A stretch of DNA of 64,000 nt, taken from Anaerolineae bacterium. Its GTDB lineage: Bacteria > Chloroflexota > Anaerolineae > Aggregatilineales > Phototrophicaceae. This document shows positions 3,602 to 61,459 of this stretch, piece by piece. The notes beneath the pieces were generated by a model. It searched no databases. It saw only the letters and a list, made by a program, of their open reading frames with translations, and was not told the origin of the DNA. A program made the translations under genes and the position numbers. The stretch is from the NCBI GenBank assembly GCA_022843745.1, contig JALHNB010000017.1, positions 1 through 64,000 of the forward strand, written 5' to 3'. Every line of letters begins with the position of its first letter. The stretch's first letter is position 1.

Positions 3602-3812
3602 CGGTTAGTCTCCTGTATTTTATAGACGAGCGATTGATTTCGCACTTTCTAAACATACGTCGAATGAAAATGCTCCAAAATGACAATTTGAGCAGGATTC
3701 TCATAATTCTCTTATCTTCGCCTGTTTAACAAGGCAAACAAACCAAAACCAAACAAAAATAAAACTTTTGTCCAATTGAGTATCGCTTTGAGGGGGCATA
3801 CAATGAAAATTG

Positions 3813-3903
3813 TGAGATTGTTTCCTATCATTAAGGGAAATCGTGAGATTATTTCCCGGCGTTAGGAAAATCATGAGATTGTTTCTTAGCAATAAGGAAA
3901 GCT
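3813..3903. repeat. Three imperfect 30-31 bp tandem repeats, each with an internal dyad
   Basis: Three units begin TGAGATT at 3813, 3844 and 3874. Each contains a dyad of the form TTTCC-N(8-10)-GGAAA, so each unit could fold or bind a dimeric protein. The last unit runs into the ribosome site and ATG (3904) of the next gene. The rest of the 302-base gene-free stretch (3602-3812) is AT-rich and shows nothing I can identify. Confidence 0.75.
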
Positions 3904-5916: not shown

Positions 5917-6000
5917 TTCGCACTACATCCTCAATAAAGCATCACCATTCGCGCACTATATCCTTAATAACGCATCACCATTCACGCTACATCCTCAACA
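5913..6000 (-). repeat. Threefold tandem repeat of a ribosome-site/start region (31-33 bp units)
   Basis: Three imperfect units each read, on the coding strand, GAGGATGTAG or AAGGATATAG followed by a GAATGGTGATGC-like block. The unit nearest the downstream gene supplies its real GAGGA site and ATG (5916). The outermost unit overlaps the stop codon of the radical SAM gene. The middle and outer copies resemble duplicated translation-initiation sequences. Confidence 0.8.
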
Positions 6001-11162: not shown

Positions 11163-12539
11163 ATGAACAATACAGAATTAATCAACTCCGGGCCAGGCCC
11201 GCGCACTGCCTTTTTAGAAAAGGTCGATGCGAAATCAATGGCTGAAACGATGGTCGCCTTTGCCAATACCGAAGGCGGAACTGTCGTGATGGGTGTGAAA
11301 GACGATGGCGAGGCTGCCGCCCAGAAAATCGATACCGAGGCGCTCGAAAAAGTCCTTCGGGAAGCTGATTCGCTGTGTAACCCCACCGTTGTCGTTGGCA
11401 ACTGGGAGCCTATTGAGGTTGAAAATGGCAGCACAGTCTATACCCTGCGCATACCGCGCAGCATCGAACTCCATGCCCTGACCGATGGTCGTGTACTCAT
11501 CCGCAGCGGCGCGAAAAATCGCCCTCTCGGCGGACAGGAGATTTTAAAACTCGCCAGCGCCAAAAGCACCGGTGATTTTGAATCCGAAGTCATTCCCGGT
11601 GTTACCAAAGATGATTTCAGCCGCAAGATGATCGACGAGTATCTGGCGAAACGCGCTGAACGTACCAAACGCCCTTATAACGGAAAAGTTGATGATCTGT
11701 TTCGCGAAATCGGCGCTGTAAATTCCGATGGCAAACCGACGGTAACAGGTATTCTGTTATTCAGCGAATATCCCCAGCACTGGATGCCCCAGAGCGGAGT
11801 GGTCTTCGCCAAATTTGTCGGCAAGACCCCGCGCGGCGAGAATGGTCTTGCGGGATATTCCCGACGTGAAGAACTCACTGGCCCACTGCCCCGTTTGATC
11901 GAATCCGCCTGGAATCTGATCTGGAGCGAAATGGCTGTCAGCGCGGTGGTCAAAGGGTTGGAGCGTGAGGAAACTTACGAATATCCCCAATTTGCTGTCC
12001 GCGAAGCCATCGTGAATGCCGTCTGCCATCGCGATTATCGCCTCAAAGGGCGGCGAATCGAGATTCGTATGTACTCGGATCGGCTCGAAGTCATTTCACC
12101 GGGCGGGCTTCCGGGCTTCATTACTGTCGAAAATATCGTTGATGAGCATTTCAGCCGCAACCCTCGACTCGTGAACGGCCTGTTTCAGTGGGGCTATATC
12201 GAAGAACTGGGGCTGGGTATTGACCGGATGATGGAAGTGATGCAGCAGGCTGGGCATAAGCCACCTTCATTTGATGCTCGTCCCTACAGCTTCGCAGTAA
12301 CTCTTTATAATGCGCGGGAAAAGCAATCCGCCCCGGCCTGGTCGCGCAATACCAACCACCGACAGGCACGTGCATTGCAATATATCCGCGATCATGGCTC
12401 AATCACCAACCGCGAATATCGAACGCTTTGCCAGGGAGTTTCGGCGGAAACGCTGCGCCTCGACCTGGCTGATATGGTATCGCAAGGAATTTTGCTTAAA
12501 GTAGGGTCAAAAAAGGGAACATATTATATCCTTAAATAG
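11163..12539 (+). CDS. AlbA_2/HATPase_c_4 putative transcriptional regulator
   Basis: A protein of about 458 residues in three parts. The N-terminal AlbA_2 (Schlafen-like) domain has AETMVAFANTEGGTVVMGVKDDG. The middle HATPase_c_4 domain has AVREAIVNAVCHRDY, DRLEVISPGGLPG and GLGIDRMMEVM. A C-terminal winged helix at about 395-458 has ALQYIRDHGSITNREYR. Such proteins are usually annotated as ATP-binding transcriptional regulators, and few have a tested function. ATG 11163 (MNNTEL) fits the domain start. An upstream in-frame ATG at 11103 would add 20 residues without a clear ribosome site. Confidence 0.88.
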   Translation: MNNTELINSGPGPRTAFLEKVDAKSMAETMVAFANTEGGTVVMGVKDDGEAAAQKIDTEALEKVLREADSLCNPTVVVGNWEPIEVENGSTVYTLRIPRSIELHALTDGRVLIRSGAKNRPLGGQEILKLASAKSTGDFESEVIPGVTKDDFSRKMIDEYLAKRAERTKRPYNGKVDDLFREIGAVNSDGKPTVTGILLFSEYPQHWMPQSGVVFAKFVGKTPRGENGLAGYSRREELTGPLPRLIESAWNLIWSEMAVSAVVKGLEREETYEYPQFAVREAIVNAVCHRDYRLKGRRIEIRMYSDRLEVISPGGLPGFITVENIVDEHFSRNPRLVNGLFQWGYIEELGLGIDRMMEVMQQAGHKPPSFDARPYSFAVTLYNAREKQSAPAWSRNTNHRQARALQYIRDHGSITNREYRTLCQGVSAETLRLDLADMVSQGILLKVGSKKGTYYILK

Positions 12540-12596
12540 AATAATCTCCGTTTCCACCAATAGAACAATTACTGTTTCCACAGGACGATAAATGGG

Positions 12597-33511: not shown

Positions 33512-35650
33512 ATGAATGTTATCGACCAGATTTTGAACTGGCTGGGTATGAAACCAACCACGCCGGAAAAAAACCCTGTTCATGAATTGCTCGAAGCCGG
33601 ACAGCGCTCCAAACGAGCCGAAGATTTTCCTACAGCTTTGGAAGCTCTGAGTCGCGCTGGGAAAATGGCCGAGACAAAACACGATCTGACCGCCCTCGTC
33701 GTTATCACCCTACATCAGGCTGAAATTTTCATCTATCAGGCGAAATGGGCAGAAGCCGAGCATCTTTTGCTTACCCTGCGTCACAAAGCGCAAAATACCG
33801 GGCAGCGCACCCAGATGGCCTATACACTGGATATGCTGGGCACACTGGCGCAGGCCAAAGGCGATTGGGGAGAAGCCCGCGCCTATTTTGAGCAAGCGCT
33901 CAAGGTCGGGCGTACAGCGGGCAGTCTCGGCGGCGAAGGCCGGGCGCTCGGTCATCTGGCAGACACTTATCTTCAAGAAAACAACGCCAGCTATGCCGTC
34001 TACCTGCTACGCGATTCGGTCACCAAGCTCAATATGAGTGGCGACATTGAATACAGCAGCTATTTTGTCGCGCGGCTGGGATATGCTTTAATTTTGAGTG
34101 GGCAAGAAACTGAAGGCGAACATCTTCTAAAACGAGCGCTGAATCTGGCGGAACAAATGCGCCACCGCCGCTATGAACGCATTTGCCTGCTTCTGCTGGG
34201 CGAACGCACAATGGTAAGTCTGCGCTATGAAGAGGCGCATAAGTATTATCAACGCGCATTGGCGCTGCTCAACCCTGCCGATCACCACCGAGAATACATC
34301 ACCACACTATGCCACCTGAGCAAAATATCGCTCCATCTGCAAAATCTGACCGATGCACTCACCTACGCGCAACAGGCAGTGGAAGCCAGCGGAAGCATTG
34401 AAGATTTTGAGTTAAAGGCAATGGCGCAGGGTATCTTGGGTATCACGCTTCGTGCAAGCGGACAAAGCGCAAAAGCGATCACGCATCTGGAAACAGCCTC
34501 CGAGCATTATCAACAGATCAATAAAAACACACGCATCGAAATTCTGCGGAATTTGGGCGCGGCGCAGGCTGATATTGGCGATGAACGGGCGATTGCGACC
34601 TATACCCAGGCGATTGACGCTGCCCAAACGCTGGATAACTCATTAGAGCTTGCGCAGGCACGCCTTGAACTAGGGCTGGTTTATGCACGGCGCAAACAGA
34701 TGCAGGCCGCGATTCAGGAATGGGTGGCGGCTCTAGGGATCTATGAGGCCGGACGTTATTATGCCCAGGTCGCACGACTGCGCTGCGATATTGGCAACGC
34801 TCGCAAATATCTGGGGCAAGGCCAACGTGCGATGAAAGAATATGAGCAAGCGCTCGTGACGCTAAACTCGATTGACGATTGGACGACACGCGGAATAGTG
34901 CTTTCCAACGCGGCCAATGCCTATGCAGATCAGGGCGATATGGATTCTGCCGATGCCTTTTTCAGCGAATCAATCACGATTGCCAGCCAGACGGGTGATC
35001 GCGTGGCTGAGGCGACACGGCGCGGCAATTATGGCTGGTTTTTACACGCGACAGGTCGTTCAAAACAGGCTGTTTCTACCCTCGAATACGCCATCCGCCT
35101 GAGCGACGAACAAAAACTTGACCTGCAAGTGGCGATTCAAACCGATAATATGGGACTGGCACACAACGCACTGGGCAATGAGGGAGCAGCACTGACCTAT
35201 CATGAGCAAGCGCTGGAACAAATCAGCAACCTGAATGAGCCACACTGGAAGTCGATTATCCAGATCAACCTGGCGAATTCGCTCCTCGGTCACTCGCGCA
35301 CTGACGAAGCAGCCGTTTTGCTGGACGAGGCGCTGCGCGAGGGACGCGCTCAGGAAGATGTCGAAGTCATCATTCGGGCGCTCACCGGGCAAGCCAGAAT
35401 CGCATTGGTACGAGGCCAGTTTGAAGAATCAGGCACGATGATTAATCACGCCGTTACCCAGGCGCGACGAGCCGATATGCGCCGCCTGCTAGCCGAGGCG
35501 CTGCGCACCCAGAGCGAACAGCAAGCGGCGATCAATCATCCAGAGCAATCATTAGCAATATGGGACGAAGCCCAAAAGCTGTTTAATGTGCTGCATACGC
35601 CAATCAAGCAGTTGCAACCCCAATGGCTCGACAGCCTGACTGAGAAATAG
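33512..35650 (+). CDS. Large TPR-repeat protein
   Basis: A 712-residue soluble protein built almost wholly of tetratricopeptide repeats (at least a dozen, e.g. GDWGEARAYFEQALKVG, QGQRAMKEYEQALVTLNSI, GNEGAALTYHEQALEQ). TPR arrays are protein-interaction scaffolds. No enzymatic, DNA-binding or kinase domain is visible, so the partner is unknown. It may be the sensing half of a regulator, as in AfsR/MalT-like proteins, without the output domain. The stop TAG lies in the first of three 24-bp in-frame repeats that would add TYSLTEKQ-type units if read through. Confidence 0.85.
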   Translation: MNVIDQILNWLGMKPTTPEKNPVHELLEAGQRSKRAEDFPTALEALSRAGKMAETKHDLTALVVITLHQAEIFIYQAKWAEAEHLLLTLRHKAQNTGQRTQMAYTLDMLGTLAQAKGDWGEARAYFEQALKVGRTAGSLGGEGRALGHLADTYLQENNASYAVYLLRDSVTKLNMSGDIEYSSYFVARLGYALILSGQETEGEHLLKRALNLAEQMRHRRYERICLLLLGERTMVSLRYEEAHKYYQRALALLNPADHHREYITTLCHLSKISLHLQNLTDALTYAQQAVEASGSIEDFELKAMAQGILGITLRASGQSAKAITHLETASEHYQQINKNTRIEILRNLGAAQADIGDERAIATYTQAIDAAQTLDNSLELAQARLELGLVYARRKQMQAAIQEWVAALGIYEAGRYYAQVARLRCDIGNARKYLGQGQRAMKEYEQALVTLNSIDDWTTRGIVLSNAANAYADQGDMDSADAFFSESITIASQTGDRVAEATRRGNYGWFLHATGRSKQAVSTLEYAIRLSDEQKLDLQVAIQTDNMGLAHNALGNEGAALTYHEQALEQISNLNEPHWKSIIQINLANSLLGHSRTDEAAVLLDEALREGRAQEDVEVIIRALTGQARIALVRGQFEESGTMINHAVTQARRADMRRLLAEALRTQSEQQAAINHPEQSLAIWDEAQKLFNVLHTPIKQLQPQWLDSLTEK

Positions 35651-35704
35651 ACTTATAGCTTAACTGAGAAGCAGACTTATAGCCTGACTGAGAAACAGAC
35701 CTAA
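35633..35704 (+). repeat. Three 24-bp in-frame tandem repeats at the 3' end of the TPR gene
   Basis: The units start at 35633, 35657 and 35681. Read in the frame of the TPR gene each encodes S-L-T-E-K-Q-T-Y. In unit 1 the Gln codon CAG is TAG, the annotated stop (35648-35650). Units 2 and 3 keep CAG, and the frame then ends at TAA 35702-35704. Differences between units are mostly silent (CTG/TTA, AAA/AAG). Confidence 0.85.
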
Positions 35705-51599: not shown

Positions 51600-51662
51600 T
51601 TTATCGTATCTTGCTAAACATTTATCACATCTTGTCAAATATTTATCGCACCCTGCCAAACG
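51600..51662. repeat. Three 21-bp iterons in the divergent codA/BMP gap
   Basis: The units start at 51600, 51621 and 51642, each TTTATC-N(6-8)-TG-N-CAAA-like and exactly 21 bp, two helical turns. They sit between the BMP promoter and the codA start. They look like phased operator sites for a regulator such as the SorC/DeoR-type protein encoded by the second gene of the codA operon. Confidence 0.7.
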
Positions 51663-54001: not shown

Positions 54002-54952
54002 ATGATGACCTCAACAAGCTCCCAAGTCGTCTGCGCGGGCATCCTCGTCGCGGATATTTTCGTACCACCGATGCCGCGTTTACCCCAGGCGGGCGAACTC
54101 CAGGCTACTGATGATTTTCTGATCGACTCCGGCGGCTGTGCAGCCAACACCGCCACCAGCCTCGTCAAATTGGGCGTTCCAACGACGGTGATCGGCAAGG
54201 TCGGCGCGGATAATTTTGGCGACTTCATCGAGAACGATCTGCGTAGCAAAGGCATAAACACAGCCGGAATCGTGCGTTCGAACACTTATGGCACATCAAA
54301 AACCGTCATTTTGCCTGTCATCGGCGAAGATCGACGCTATATCCACACATTTGGCGCGAATGCTGATTTCAGTGGAGCAGATTTGAATCGCGAGTTGATC
54401 GCAGGCGCGAAATTCTTTTATCTGGGCGGCTACCTCGTCCTGCCCGGCCTCCAACCGCAAGACCTTTCCGAAACGCTGCAATTCGCGCGGCAGCAAGGCG
54501 CACAGACCATGCTCGATGTGGTCGTGCCAGCCGACAGCGGCGATTCCAGTTTCAAGGCGCTGGAAATGGCTTTGCCGTATGTGGATGTGTTCACGCCCAA
54601 TGACGGTGAAGCGCGCACCTTAACCGGGGAAACTGACCCGGAACGTCAGGCAAAACGCTTATTAGACGCGGGCTGTGGGACGGTGGTGATTACGATGGGT
54701 GAACACGGCTCACTACTGATGAACAAAAGCGAAACGCTGCATCTGCCGTCCTTCCCGGTCAAAGTGGTCGATGGCTCCGGCGCGGGTGATGCCTTCGCGG
54801 CAGGATTTATCGTCGGCTTGCTGGAAGGCTGGTCAATGACTGAAACGCTGCGGTTTGCCAGCGCAGTCGGTGGCTCGGCCTGCACACGGCTCGGCTGCAC
54901 ACCGGGCGTATTTACCCGTCCAGAGGCGCTGGCCTATTTGCAGGCACACTGA
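54002..54952 (+). CDS. PfkB-family carbohydrate/nucleoside kinase
   Basis: A 316-residue ribokinase-like sugar kinase. The substrate-binding start has CAGILVADIF and GGCAANTATSLVKLG. The catalytic and anion-hole region DGSGAGDAFAAGFIVGLLEG is near residue 260, with the preceding VITMGEHGSLL. It probably phosphorylates a sugar or nucleoside; the exact substrate is unclear. The ATG at 54002 (or 54005) has AAAGGA upstream, formed by the tail of a family A hairpin. It lies in the codA-regulator operon direction. Confidence 0.92.
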   Translation: MMTSTSSQVVCAGILVADIFVPPMPRLPQAGELQATDDFLIDSGGCAANTATSLVKLGVPTTVIGKVGADNFGDFIENDLRSKGINTAGIVRSNTYGTSKTVILPVIGEDRRYIHTFGANADFSGADLNRELIAGAKFFYLGGYLVLPGLQPQDLSETLQFARQQGAQTMLDVVVPADSGDSSFKALEMALPYVDVFTPNDGEARTLTGETDPERQAKRLLDAGCGTVVITMGEHGSLLMNKSETLHLPSFPVKVVDGSGAGDAFAAGFIVGLLEGWSMTETLRFASAVGGSACTRLGCTPGVFTRPEALAYLQAH

Positions 54953-58052: not shown

Positions 58053-59024
58053 ATGGATAAATTCAACGACCTCAGCACCGAACATCTGCTTGCGCTCTAT
58101 CGCCGAATGATGCTCATCCGGCGCTTCGAGGAGCGAGTCTACTACCTCTTTTTGCAGGGTGAACTCCCCGGCACGCTGCACCAATGCCAGGGTCAGGAAG
58201 CCGTCGCCGTCGGCGTGTGCGATCACCTGAACTACACCGACTGGATCACCTCGACTCACCGCCCTCATGGTCACGCATTAGCAAAAGGCGTATCGACAGA
58301 AAGCGCAATGGCCGAGCTTTACGGCAAGGTCACAGGCTGCTGCAAAGGTAAAGGCGGCTCGATGCACTTTGGCGACCCGGCTGTCGGGATGCTGCCCGCG
58401 ATTGCCATCGTCGGCGGTGGTAACAGCGTCGTGGCTGGTCTTGGGCTGGCCTTCAAACTACGCAAAACGCAGCAAGTCGCTGTCTGCTTTTTCGGCGAAG
58501 GCGCAACCAACGAAGGCGCGTTCCACGAAAGCATCAATTTTGCCGCCGTGCAAAAACTGCCGATTGTCTTCGTCTGCGAAAATAATCTCTATGGCGCGTC
58601 TACCGCCTATCATGCTGTGTCACCCGTTAAGGATGTCGCTGACCGCGCGGCAGCTTACAATGTCCCGGCGCAGATCGTCGATGGCATGGACGTGTTGGCT
58701 GTTCGCGCCGCCGCTGGTGATGCAATTGCCGCTGCCCGTGCTGGGCAAGGCCCGATTTTGCTGGAATGTAAAACCTATCGCTTCACAGGCCACAGCCGGA
58801 GCGATGCACGTGGCTACCGCACCAAAACCGAAGAAGCCGAATGGCTGGCGAAAGACCCGATTCCCGGCCTGGGAAACGCGATGGTCGCCGCTGGACGGAT
58901 CAGCGCGGATAACCTGACCGCCGTTGAAGATGATGTGATGCGAGAGCTTGACGAAGCCGTAGAATTTGCGCGTAACTCGCCGGACACCACGCCGGAACAA
59001 GCGCTGGAGGATGTTTTGGCATGA
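58053..59024 (+). CDS. pdhA: 2-oxoacid/acetoin dehydrogenase E1 component, alpha subunit
   Basis: A 323-residue thiamine-diphosphate subunit (MDKFNDLSTEHLLALYRRMM). TPP/Mg binding is seen in GKGGSMHFGDP and GEGATNEGAFHESINFAA. The phosphorylation-loop segment is TYRFTGHSRSDARGYRTK. It resembles E1 alpha of pyruvate or acetoin dehydrogenase. It oxidatively decarboxylates a 2-oxo acid or acetoin and passes the acyl group to lipoyl-E2. ATG 58053 has ACAGGAAC upstream. The last bases overlap E1 beta (ATGA). The sugar context favours pyruvate or acetoin, but a branched-chain substrate is not excluded. Confidence 0.93.
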   Translation: MDKFNDLSTEHLLALYRRMMLIRRFEERVYYLFLQGELPGTLHQCQGQEAVAVGVCDHLNYTDWITSTHRPHGHALAKGVSTESAMAELYGKVTGCCKGKGGSMHFGDPAVGMLPAIAIVGGGNSVVAGLGLAFKLRKTQQVAVCFFGEGATNEGAFHESINFAAVQKLPIVFVCENNLYGASTAYHAVSPVKDVADRAAAYNVPAQIVDGMDVLAVRAAAGDAIAAARAGQGPILLECKTYRFTGHSRSDARGYRTKTEEAEWLAKDPIPGLGNAMVAAGRISADNLTAVEDDVMRELDEAVEFARNSPDTTPEQALEDVLA

Positions 59025-60058
59025 CGACAAATATTGCGATTGAAGAGCGTAGACTGACTATTGCTGAGGCGCTTCGTGAAGCGATTGCCGAGGAGATGCG
59101 CCGCGACGAATCGGTCTTTCTCATCGGTGAGGATGTCGGCGTAGAGGGCGGTTTTGGCGGCGCGTTCGGTGTCTATCTGGGTTTGCCGGAAGAATTCGGT
59201 CACGAGCGCATCATCGACACGCCCATCAGCGAAAAAGTGATCGCGGGTGCGGCCACAGGCGCGGCTCTGATGGGAATGCGCCCGATTGCCGACATGCAGT
59301 ATTCGGACTTTTTGTTCGAGTGTATGGACGAGTTGGTGAATCAGGCAGCGAAAATGCGCTATATGTCCGGCGGCAAACTGAGCGTCCCGATGGTCATGCG
59401 TGCGCCTGTCGGGGCAACCAATCGCGGCGCACAGCACGCCCAATGCCCGGAAAGTTATTTTATTCACGTCCCCGGCTTAAAAGTCGTGGCTGTTTCCGAT
59501 GCCTATCACGCCAAAGGCATCCTCAAAAGCGCGGTGCGTGACAATAACCCAGTGCTGATTTTTGAGCATAAATTGCTCTACGGCAGCAAAGGTCGCTCGA
59601 TGGCGGGCGGAATCGAACTGACAACGCACGTGCCACAGGAGGAATATTTGTTCCCCATCGGCAAAGCGGTTGTCAAGCGTCCCGGCGATCATGTGACCAT
59701 CGTCGCCACCCACATCAGCCTCTATCGCTCATTGGCAGCGGCGGAAGAATTAGCGGCTGACGGCATTTCGTGCGAAGTCATCGACCCGATCACGCTTAAT
59801 CCGCTGGATAAAGAAACGCTGTTTGCATCCGTTCGCAAAACCGGGCGGCTGGTAATCGCGCATGAAGACACGCTTACAGGTGGTTGGGGTGCGGAAGTCG
59901 CCGCGTTGGTCGCCGACGAGTGCCTTTTCAGCCTGGAAGCACCGATCAAGCGCATCGCCACCGCGGACGTGCCGCTGCCCTTCGCGCCCATCATGGAGCA
60001 GGCCGTCGTCCCCACTACCGAGCGCATCGCAGCAACAATTCGCGGCCTTTTCCGCTAA
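59021..60058 (+). CDS. pdhB: 2-oxoacid/acetoin dehydrogenase E1 component, beta subunit
   Basis: A 345-residue E1 beta subunit of normal length. Landmarks: LIGEDVGVEGGFGGAFGVYLG, split as VFLIGEDVGVEGGFGGAFG; DTPISEKVIAGAATGAALMG; RAPVGATNRGAQHAQCPESY; and the C-terminal IAHEDTLTGGWGAEVAALV and RIATADVPLPFAPIMEQ. It joins E1 alpha to form the alpha2beta2 TPP enzyme. The ATG overlaps the E1 alpha stop by 4 bases. The stop is followed by a duplicated E2 start region. Confidence 0.95.
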   Translation: MTTNIAIEERRLTIAEALREAIAEEMRRDESVFLIGEDVGVEGGFGGAFGVYLGLPEEFGHERIIDTPISEKVIAGAATGAALMGMRPIADMQYSDFLFECMDELVNQAAKMRYMSGGKLSVPMVMRAPVGATNRGAQHAQCPESYFIHVPGLKVVAVSDAYHAKGILKSAVRDNNPVLIFEHKLLYGSKGRSMAGGIELTTHVPQEEYLFPIGKAVVKRPGDHVTIVATHISLYRSLAAAEELAADGISCEVIDPITLNPLDKETLFASVRKTGRLVIAHEDTLTGGWGAEVAALVADECLFSLEAPIKRIATADVPLPFAPIMEQAVVPTTERIAATIRGLFR

Positions 60059-60068
60059 AGGAGTCTCT

Positions 60069-60113
60069 ATGAGCCGTGAAATTCGAATGCTCAATGAGGG
60101 AGATTGTTTATGA
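60069..60113 (+). CDS. 14-codon upstream ORF duplicating the E2 N-terminus
   Basis: ATG at 60069 encodes MSREIRMLNEGDCL and ends at TGA (60111-60113). The first seven residues equal the E2 start MSREIRM. The DNA is a 41-bp tandem duplication (22 bases matching with one change, each preceded by GGAG). The uORF stop overlaps the E2 ATG by 2 bases, so ribosomes could couple to E2. It is probably a leader rather than a functional peptide. Confidence 0.7.
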   Translation: MSREIRMLNEGDCL

Positions 60114-61459
60114 GCCGTGAAATTCGGATGCCCGCGCTAGGACAAGTTTCCGACGAACTTCTAATCGTGCGCTGGCTGAAAAACGAGGGTGATTCGGTCA
60201 AATTGGGCGAACCGCTGCTTGAAATTGAAACTGACAAAGCCACGCTGGAAGTCGAGGCGGCGGAGGCTGGAATCCTGCTGCAAATTACTAAGCAGGAAGG
60301 CGAAACGGTTGAAGTTGGCACGGTGATCGCCGTCGTCGGCAAGCCCGGTGAGAAGCTTCAACAGGCAAAAGTCGAGGTCGCGCAAGCTGCTGCCGCACCG
60401 ATTACAGCGTCTCAGGCGATCATCGATGCGCCAGGGAAAGTATTGGCTGTCCCTACCGCGCGTCTGTTAGCTCGCGAAAATGGAATTGACATCGTGCAGA
60501 TTCCCGGCACTGGCCCGAACGGATTAGTCGAAAAACGCGATGTGCAGGCCATCATCGACCAGAAGCACGAACCAGCAAAAATCGCGGTAACGCCTGTTGC
60601 GCGTCAAATGGCTCGCGAACATAACCTTGACCTCGCGCAAGTCAGTGGCAGCGGCCCGAATGGACGCATCGAAAAACGCGATCTGGAAACGCTGATTCAG
60701 CCAATTACCCCCTCACCCCCAGCCCCTCTTCCCACAGGAACTTCCGTTGGTCGCTCTCAAGGAGCGAGGGGAGAAATTCAGGCACAGGAAAGCGATATTC
60801 CTGTTCCGAAACATCGCCAGATTATCGCCCAGCGTCTCACGCAGTCGGTCACGACCATCCCGCAGATTCGGCTGACGATGACCGCCAATATGAGTCAGCC
60901 ACGCACGATGCTCACCACGCAACGGGCAGCGGGATTGCCCAAATTGTCCTACACGCATCTGATTTTACGGGCGGTTGCTGCTGCGCTGCGGGCATATCCG
61001 CGCGTGAACAGCCTGTGGATCAACGATGGGCCGCGCCTGCGTCCCCTTCAACGTGCCGATGTAGGCCTGGCGATTGCCAGTGATGATAACCTGCTGGTGG
61101 CGACGATTCCTGAGCCGGATCGCACCTCGTTGACACAGCTTATCCGAAGCGCTGACGAAGCCATCGAACGCGGACGGCGCGGGACACTCTCGCAAATCGA
61201 CCTGAATCCGGCAGCAATCACCGTGAGTAACCTCGGCATGTACGGTGTCGATGATTTTGAAGCGATTGTCGATCCTTCGCAGACCGCGATTCTGGCGGTT
61301 GGGCGTGTAGCCGAGCAAGTGATCGTCATTGATGGCGGTATCCGAGTCGCGCCGCTGATAAATCTCAGCCTCACCGTCGATCATCGTGTCGCTGATGGCG
61401 CATTAGCCGCGCAATTTTTGAAACGCATTCGCGAGGAATTGGAACAGAGCGAAGTTTAA
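60110..61459 (+). CDS. pdhC: Dihydrolipoamide acyltransferase (E2) with two E1/E3-binding domains
   Basis: A 449-residue E2. The lipoyl domain (1-78) has the modified Lys in ETDKATLEVEA (Lys 43). Two peripheral-subunit-binding domains follow: about 111-148 (PTARLLARENGIDIVQIPGT) and 158-196 (TPVARQMAREHNLDLAQVSG); one is usual. The linker about 200-224 (PSPPAPLPTGTSVGRSQGAR) is encoded by a family B repeat element. The catalytic domain (about 235-449) ends with the active-site TVDHRVADGALAAQF. ATG 60110 follows a duplicated leader. No E3 (dihydrolipoamide dehydrogenase) gene is in the window. Confidence 0.94.
   Translation: MSREIRMPALGQVSDELLIVRWLKNEGDSVKLGEPLLEIETDKATLEVEAAEAGILLQITKQEGETVEVGTVIAVVGKPGEKLQQAKVEVAQAAAAPITASQAIIDAPGKVLAVPTARLLARENGIDIVQIPGTGPNGLVEKRDVQAIIDQKHEPAKIAVTPVARQMAREHNLDLAQVSGSGPNGRIEKRDLETLIQPITPSPPAPLPTGTSVGRSQGARGEIQAQESDIPVPKHRQIIAQRLTQSVTTIPQIRLTMTANMSQPRTMLTTQRAAGLPKLSYTHLILRAVAAALRAYPRVNSLWINDGPRLRPLQRADVGLAIASDDNLLVATIPEPDRTSLTQLIRSADEAIERGRRGTLSQIDLNPAAITVSNLGMYGVDDFEAIVDPSQTAILAVGRVAEQVIVIDGGIRVAPLINLSLTVDHRVADGALAAQFLKRIREELEQSEV
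60712..60773 (+). repeat. Family B element inside the E2 coding region
   Basis: The DNA CCCCCTCACCCCCAGCCCCT and, farther on, GAGCGAGGGGAGA match the family B elements at 23.78 and 53.87 kb. Here the element is in frame and encodes a Pro/Ser/Gly-rich linker between the second binding domain and the catalytic domain. Confidence 0.65.

Follow-up and report, generated by a model that had tools for sequence, protein, structure and literature searches.

The stop codon of the leader cistron in a bicistronic design (BCD) overlaps the start codon of the target gene, and this leader cistron reportedly goes back to Mutalik and colleagues in 2013. The accessible text of one description (PMC5995908) gives the arrangement as a first Shine-Dalgarno site (SD1), a leader ORF of less than 20 codons, a second site (SD2) in the 3' end of this ORF, and reinitiation at the second cistron. 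Overlapping gene pairs share, in the large majority of cases, either 4 nt or 1 nt (available portions of PMC6728339 and PMC10666635), and reporter work on six gene pairs indicates that reinitiation needs an overlap or a very short gap, ~20 nt nearly abolishing it (same portion of PMC10666635). As to short duplications, the repair of staggered breaks is described, in the available part of PMC5730883, as giving short tandem duplications in embryonic stem cells (46-nt protruding ends, in a Ku80- and Lig4-dependent manner), and close direct repeats are common in the intergenic DNA of prokaryotes (PMC4060949, in its accessible part). Our literature search, with most subscription papers outside its reach, found nothing on duplicated start or ribosome sites and, for short duplications, no listed title on this process.

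The window analyzed here, i.e., the whole 64-kb stretch of DNA, carries an operon for E1 alpha, E1 beta and E2 (Table 1), whose E1 beta-E2 junction is similar to a BCD, as predicted from sequence only, in having SD1 upstream, a 14-codon first cistron that contains SD2, and a stop codon placed on the target start. Our preferred reading, to which we assign a probability of about 0.75, is that a duplication habit of this lineage, with selection as a filter, has left in front of E2 a relay cistron that is nearly neutral.

Anatomy of the E1 beta-E2 junction

Downstream of the E1 beta stop codon (TAA, 60056-60058), the junction runs through AGGAGTCTCT, a first start codon (ATG1, 60069-60071), a short upstream ORF (uORF) and a TGA (60111-60113) lying over the E2 start codon (ATG2, 60110-60112), with which it shares a 4-nt overlap (ATGA). 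The initial annotation had described this 14-codon ORF with its overlapping stop, and the coordinates it gave (60069-60113, and 60110 for the E2 start) are correct. The E1 beta stop is separated from ATG1 by 10 nt, and the gap between E1 beta and ATG2 is 51 nt. With SD strength expressed as duplex energy against the tail CCTCCTTT of the genome's own 16S rRNA, both junction starts are preceded by good SDs (Table 1); together with a 4-nt overlap that permits termination-reinitiation (PMC10666635, available portion), these energies bear out a leader-cistron anatomy. In the assembly, a single 16S rRNA match turned up, on an 18.6-kb contig (L168, G000:C99). RNA folding at the E2 start reveals no excess structure (z 0.15), which led us to reject a fold that hides this start, and the unpaired probabilities around this start vary with the folded span, with nothing clear emerging. 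The sequence TTTATGA was considered as a candidate site at which ribosomes on the uORF might slip by -1 into the E2 frame.

Table 1. Features of the operon and of the junction (window coordinates), and duplicated starts in the genome sample
Feature	Coordinates	Strand	Basis
E1 alpha, pyruvate dehydrogenase-type, 323 aa	58053-59024	+	Pfam E1_dh 1.2e-84; TIGR03182 1.8e-104, below its curated cut-off
E1 beta, 345 aa	59021-60058	+	NF006667 337 bits, above cut-off 321
SD1, GGAG core within AAAGGAG, upstream copy	60060-60063	+	duplex -8.3 kcal/mol to 16S tail
Copy 1 of duplicated block	60061-60090	+	26/30 vs. copy 2, offset 41
uORF MSREIRMLNEGDCL, 14 codons + TGA 60111-60113	60069-60113	+	sequence reading
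Filler, unmatched, between blocks; contains most of SD2	60091-60101	+	no close second genomic copy
SD2, GGAG core of E2, within uORF	60099-60102	+	duplex -8.9 kcal/mol to 16S tail
Copy 2 of duplicated block, contains true E2 start	60102-60131	+	26/30 vs. copy 1
E2 dihydrolipoyl acyltransferase, 449 aa; lipoyl, E3-binding and catalytic domains	60110-61459	+	Pfam Biotin_lipoyl, E3_binding, 2-oxoacid_dh
Eight duplicated starts	window 60069; L086 511; L070 1612 (-); L078 11439 (-); L090 7316; L058 16103 (-); L050 8020; L096 14557 (-)		

What had been reported as a 41-bp tandem duplication keeps its offset of 41 and loses its character of a clean tandem copy. The best 41-nt window at this offset matches at only 30/41 positions, and the best ungapped block (60061-60090 vs. 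60102-60131) is 87% identical; ~30 nt are duplicated and ~11 nt of the 41 are uncopied, i.e., this is a gapped duplication. Similarly, the copying of the ribosome site, ATG and first seven codons holds for the coding part, where 20/21 nt from the ATG onward are identical, and less so for the SD region, which is loosely copied, with GGAG-to-ATG spacings of 5 nt (SD1 to ATG1) and 7 nt (SD2 to ATG2). Within the 21 nt of copied coding sequence there is a single base change, and it leaves the encoded amino acid unaltered in either copy (n = 1, uninformative). The duplication is not listed by Tandem Repeats Finder at its default score. The 21-mer of the start occurs at two sites in the genome, both at this junction (reversed-pattern control, 0), and no pair this strong arose in a first-order Markov null of 500 kb; the duplication is thus not due to chance.

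The E2 protein matches NCBIfam E2 models below the model cut-offs. Searched against its own genome (G000; 7.96 Mb, 117 contigs) at E 0.001, it gave nine matches, seven of them among the matches listed (C17, C32, C21, C7, C2 twice, and C44), and several predicted acyltransferase paralogues are behind these nine. Two possible sources of the duplicated material were rejected: (i) recombination with an E2 paralogue, since the genome has the start 21-mer nowhere but at the E1 beta-E2 junction, and (ii) derivation of the filler from elsewhere in the genome, as a search with <=3 mismatches returned its own site plus one place with 3 mismatches.

No other member of the genus is present among the genomes searched, and a scan of named genomes brought up no confirmed relative. 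The nearest full-length E2 (46%) is in G022, a genome of the same family, on a 23,683-b contig with a 13-nt E1 beta-E2 spacer and no duplication at the junction; G337, of the same class, has an E2 with 58% identity over residues 158-446, a spacer of 4 nt and, likewise, no duplication at this junction. These two included, a duplicated start was found at 0/20 E2 junctions of the compared genomes (score of at least 14). Among E2 loci of named genomes (the best 80 of 579, with identity <=44%), 73 were scanned, six having no N-terminus in the match and one no upstream DNA; repeats near the start were present in 2/73, both simple arrays, and duplicated starts in 0/73. At such distances (<=58%), the compared homologues cannot date the event, and most of the E2 genes from named genomes say little about this junction. 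The spacing of ATG1 (10 nt) resembles that of the homologues (13 and 4 nt), so that the duplication is probably derived.

Close duplications across the genome

We have scanned the window together with 80 further stretches of the same genome (L048-L127), in total 1,661,120 b or 21% of the genome from 7 large contigs, for ungapped self-matches with a net score of at least 17 at offsets of 15-200, offsets of 20-45 defining the close class. This sample contains 86 pairs, 58 of them close, with 31-33 as the commonest offsets; the junction pair is among those recorded by the self-match scan (score 19, offset 41). The copies are mostly 17-35 nt long with a mean core divergence of 5.8%; a spacer separates them in 43/58 pairs (with all 58 counted, the median gap is 5 nt), and a few of the pairs belong to arrays with three or more copies. 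In six relatives, represented by one contig each (800,000 b in total), there are 12 pairs, of which 2 are close, both with offsets divisible by 3, vs. 27.9 expected at the rate of the own genome (Poisson P 3e-10). The two controls matched in G+C (G027 and G069, 0.53 vs. 0.52) have 0 and 1 close pairs. This comparison suggests a close-duplication density specific to the lineage, the six relatives sampled being far poorer in such pairs.

By simple ORF calls (1402 ORFs covering 90% of the sample), in which the leftmost start codon was taken as the start, making the start class approximate, the 58 close pairs are distributed as 18 intergenic, 15 stop-spanning, 8 start-spanning, 7 spanning both and 10 inside ORFs. 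Thus, 48/58 touch gene edges or gaps, even though ORFs make up nine-tenths of the sample, and offsets are divisible by 3 in 9/10 of the pairs inside ORFs vs. 16/48 of the others. The concentration at edges and the reading frame kept inside ORFs point to a mutational process filtered by selection. Stops are spanned in 22 cases vs. 15 for starts (the 7 counted in both), and, with starts not favored over stops, the creation of uORFs is not the driver of the duplications.

In several loci (L104:7939, L080:3060, L126:1248, L097:1224, L116:1862), a gene end, as judged by eye, is copied, with the last codons and the stop repeated just downstream. A 951-codon ORF (L115:8090-10945), its sequence rich in ACN/CCN codons, holds several repeats that stay in frame, offset by 66-144 nt. 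Other short tandem arrays of the window, with periods of 15-33, are located at 3805-3900, 5919-5998, 12535-12581, 35633-35700, 51600-51661 and 54872-54902.

Eight starts with an upstream copy, E2 included, were picked by eye from 27 candidate rows (Table 1). Their upstream ORFs span 7-14 codons (7-13 in the seven cases besides E2) and have their ends in the range of -5 to +17 nt relative to the gene start, with an exact 4-nt overlap in 3/8; at some of these starts, e.g., L090 and L050, the SD is weak in terms of duplex energy. The 19 dropped rows comprise second starts in loci that were represented by another row (L096, L070, window), rows with a TTG/GTG start or an ORF 80-171 codons long (L084 twice, L125, L086 (-) twice, L058 (+), L099, L123, L074), L080 (TTG, 302 codons, offset 33), in-frame pairs inside genes (L111 and L098, two each), and L117 12766 and L087 1374 (-), in which, contrary to the E2 case, it is the upstream copy that opens the longer ORF. 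Where a dropped row has an upstream ORF of the short type, this ORF ends at -22 to +28 nt relative to the second start. No selected row has an offset divisible by 3, such offsets being confined to dropped ones (L080, L099, L123, L111, L098), so that the 8/8 out-of-frame offsets are partly a product of choice.

For comparison, duplications were simulated over starts with an SD and ATG (530 found, those near stretch ends being skipped). The 4-nt overlap of the E2 kind arises in 25.7% of simulated 41-nt duplications, and the geometry at E2 therefore needs no special explanation. Three exact overlaps out of eight are within expectation by the same simulation (P 0.15). Over all simulated duplications, 43.7% of ORF ends fall into the -5 to +17 window, and the 8/8 observed there correspond to P 1.3e-3, both the window and the cases having been chosen after seeing the data. 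There may be selection against duplications whose uORF extends far into the gene.

Competing readings of the E2 uORF

In the preferred reading, a close, often gapped direct duplication would have struck the E1 beta-E2 junction. ATG1 was probably the original E2 start; the duplication would have supplied E2 with a second complete start (SD2-ATG2), leaving the old one as a 14-codon frameshifted remnant; an offset of 2 mod 3, combined with the ATGA that opens E2, makes this remnant stop on the new start. E2 would thereby have moved from ~10 to 51 nt behind E1 beta, the uORF bridging the gap. Ribosomes would translate the uORF, many reinitiating at E2 and others beginning directly at SD2, with little net change, and the uORF would be retained for doing little harm rather than for tuning E2. 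Judged by analogy, some coupling between the uORF and E2 is plausible. Against a near-neutral by-product stand the ends of all eight chosen uORFs near the gene start, which hint at selection on geometry, the reversed cases L117 and L087, by which the direction is not uniform, and a sampling basis of 7 large contigs (21%) for the own genome and one contig per control.

A bolder version, which we regard as unlikely, would have an active, Ku-independent process of gapped self-copying over 20-45 nt that, at gene starts, repeatedly builds translated leader cistrons with a coupling or buffering role, E2 being one of some tens (extrapolated from 8 in 21% of the genome).

A selected device, in which the 14-codon leader raises or sets E2 synthesis via termination-reinitiation to match E1:E2:E3 stoichiometry, is rather improbable. 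All of its components are present (SD1, an ORF of less than 20 codons, SD2 within it and a stop-start overlap), the 51-nt gap, given the near loss of reinitiation at ~20 nt (PMC10666635, in its accessible part), is one that a relay ORF could span, and the same operon has a second stop-start overlap, the E1 alpha stop being overlapped by the E1 beta ATG (ATGA, 59021-59024). Nevertheless, the same geometry appears in about a quarter of simulated duplications, E2 has a strong SD of its own, the RNA structure to be unfolded is not unusual, and duplications favor starts no more than stops. The tuning of E2 relative to E1 put forward in the initial annotation finds no support, in view of an equally strong own SD, the folding z of 0.15, the 25.7% of simulated overlaps and the 58 close duplications in the sample.

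It is very improbable that the uORF acts as a decoy, cutting E2 output through the capture of ribosomes by SD1, an effect that could be tolerated or selected. SD1 is indeed the first site behind E1 beta, lies 5 nt ahead of its ATG, and nearly equals SD2 in strength; SD2, however, is as strong as SD1, and the E2 start, where the uORF terminates, is a place permissive for reinitiation (PMC10666635, available text). An assembly or sequencing artefact is barely credible: the assembly is a draft of 117 contigs and the searches turned up no further assembly of this species, but the copies differ at 4/30 positions, the filler between them is without another close copy in the genome, and other sampled contigs show further cases with core divergences of 0-13%.

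Relation to known systems

The genome-wide duplication habit is of more interest than the E2 uORF, which alone is one plausible leader cistron. In one genome of this family, dense, short, gapped self-duplications are found with reading-frame selection visible, and gene starts have been turned into leader-cistron arrangements. This wider pattern offers a concrete and testable route to bacterial upstream ORFs and overlapping frames, and points to a mutational mechanism behind it. If true, the coupling reading would mean that bicistronic control can arise in nature through mutation.

A Ku gene was found in 0/8 genomes (the own one and seven relatives) at E 0.001 and, among 14 named control genomes, in B. 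subtilis only; Ku end joining was rejected as the duplication mechanism, since no Ku was found. Compared with the staggered-break tandem duplications, as far as the accessible part of PMC5730883 describes them, those observed here are likewise short and, unlike there, occur in a genome without a detected Ku. General close direct repeats of prokaryotes are already in print, and what stands out in this lineage is length, offset and density: relative to the repeats covered by the available part of PMC4060949, the copies are mostly 17-35 nt long, at offsets of 20-45, and far denser than in six relatives. With termination-reinitiation at overlapping gene pairs (accessible portion of PMC10666635) the junction shares the 4-nt ATGA, the upstream frame here being a 14-codon remnant and not a gene. 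Finally, in contrast to a BCD, the E2 junction, with putative leader translation and a putative benefit, is natural and built from the gene's own duplicated start.
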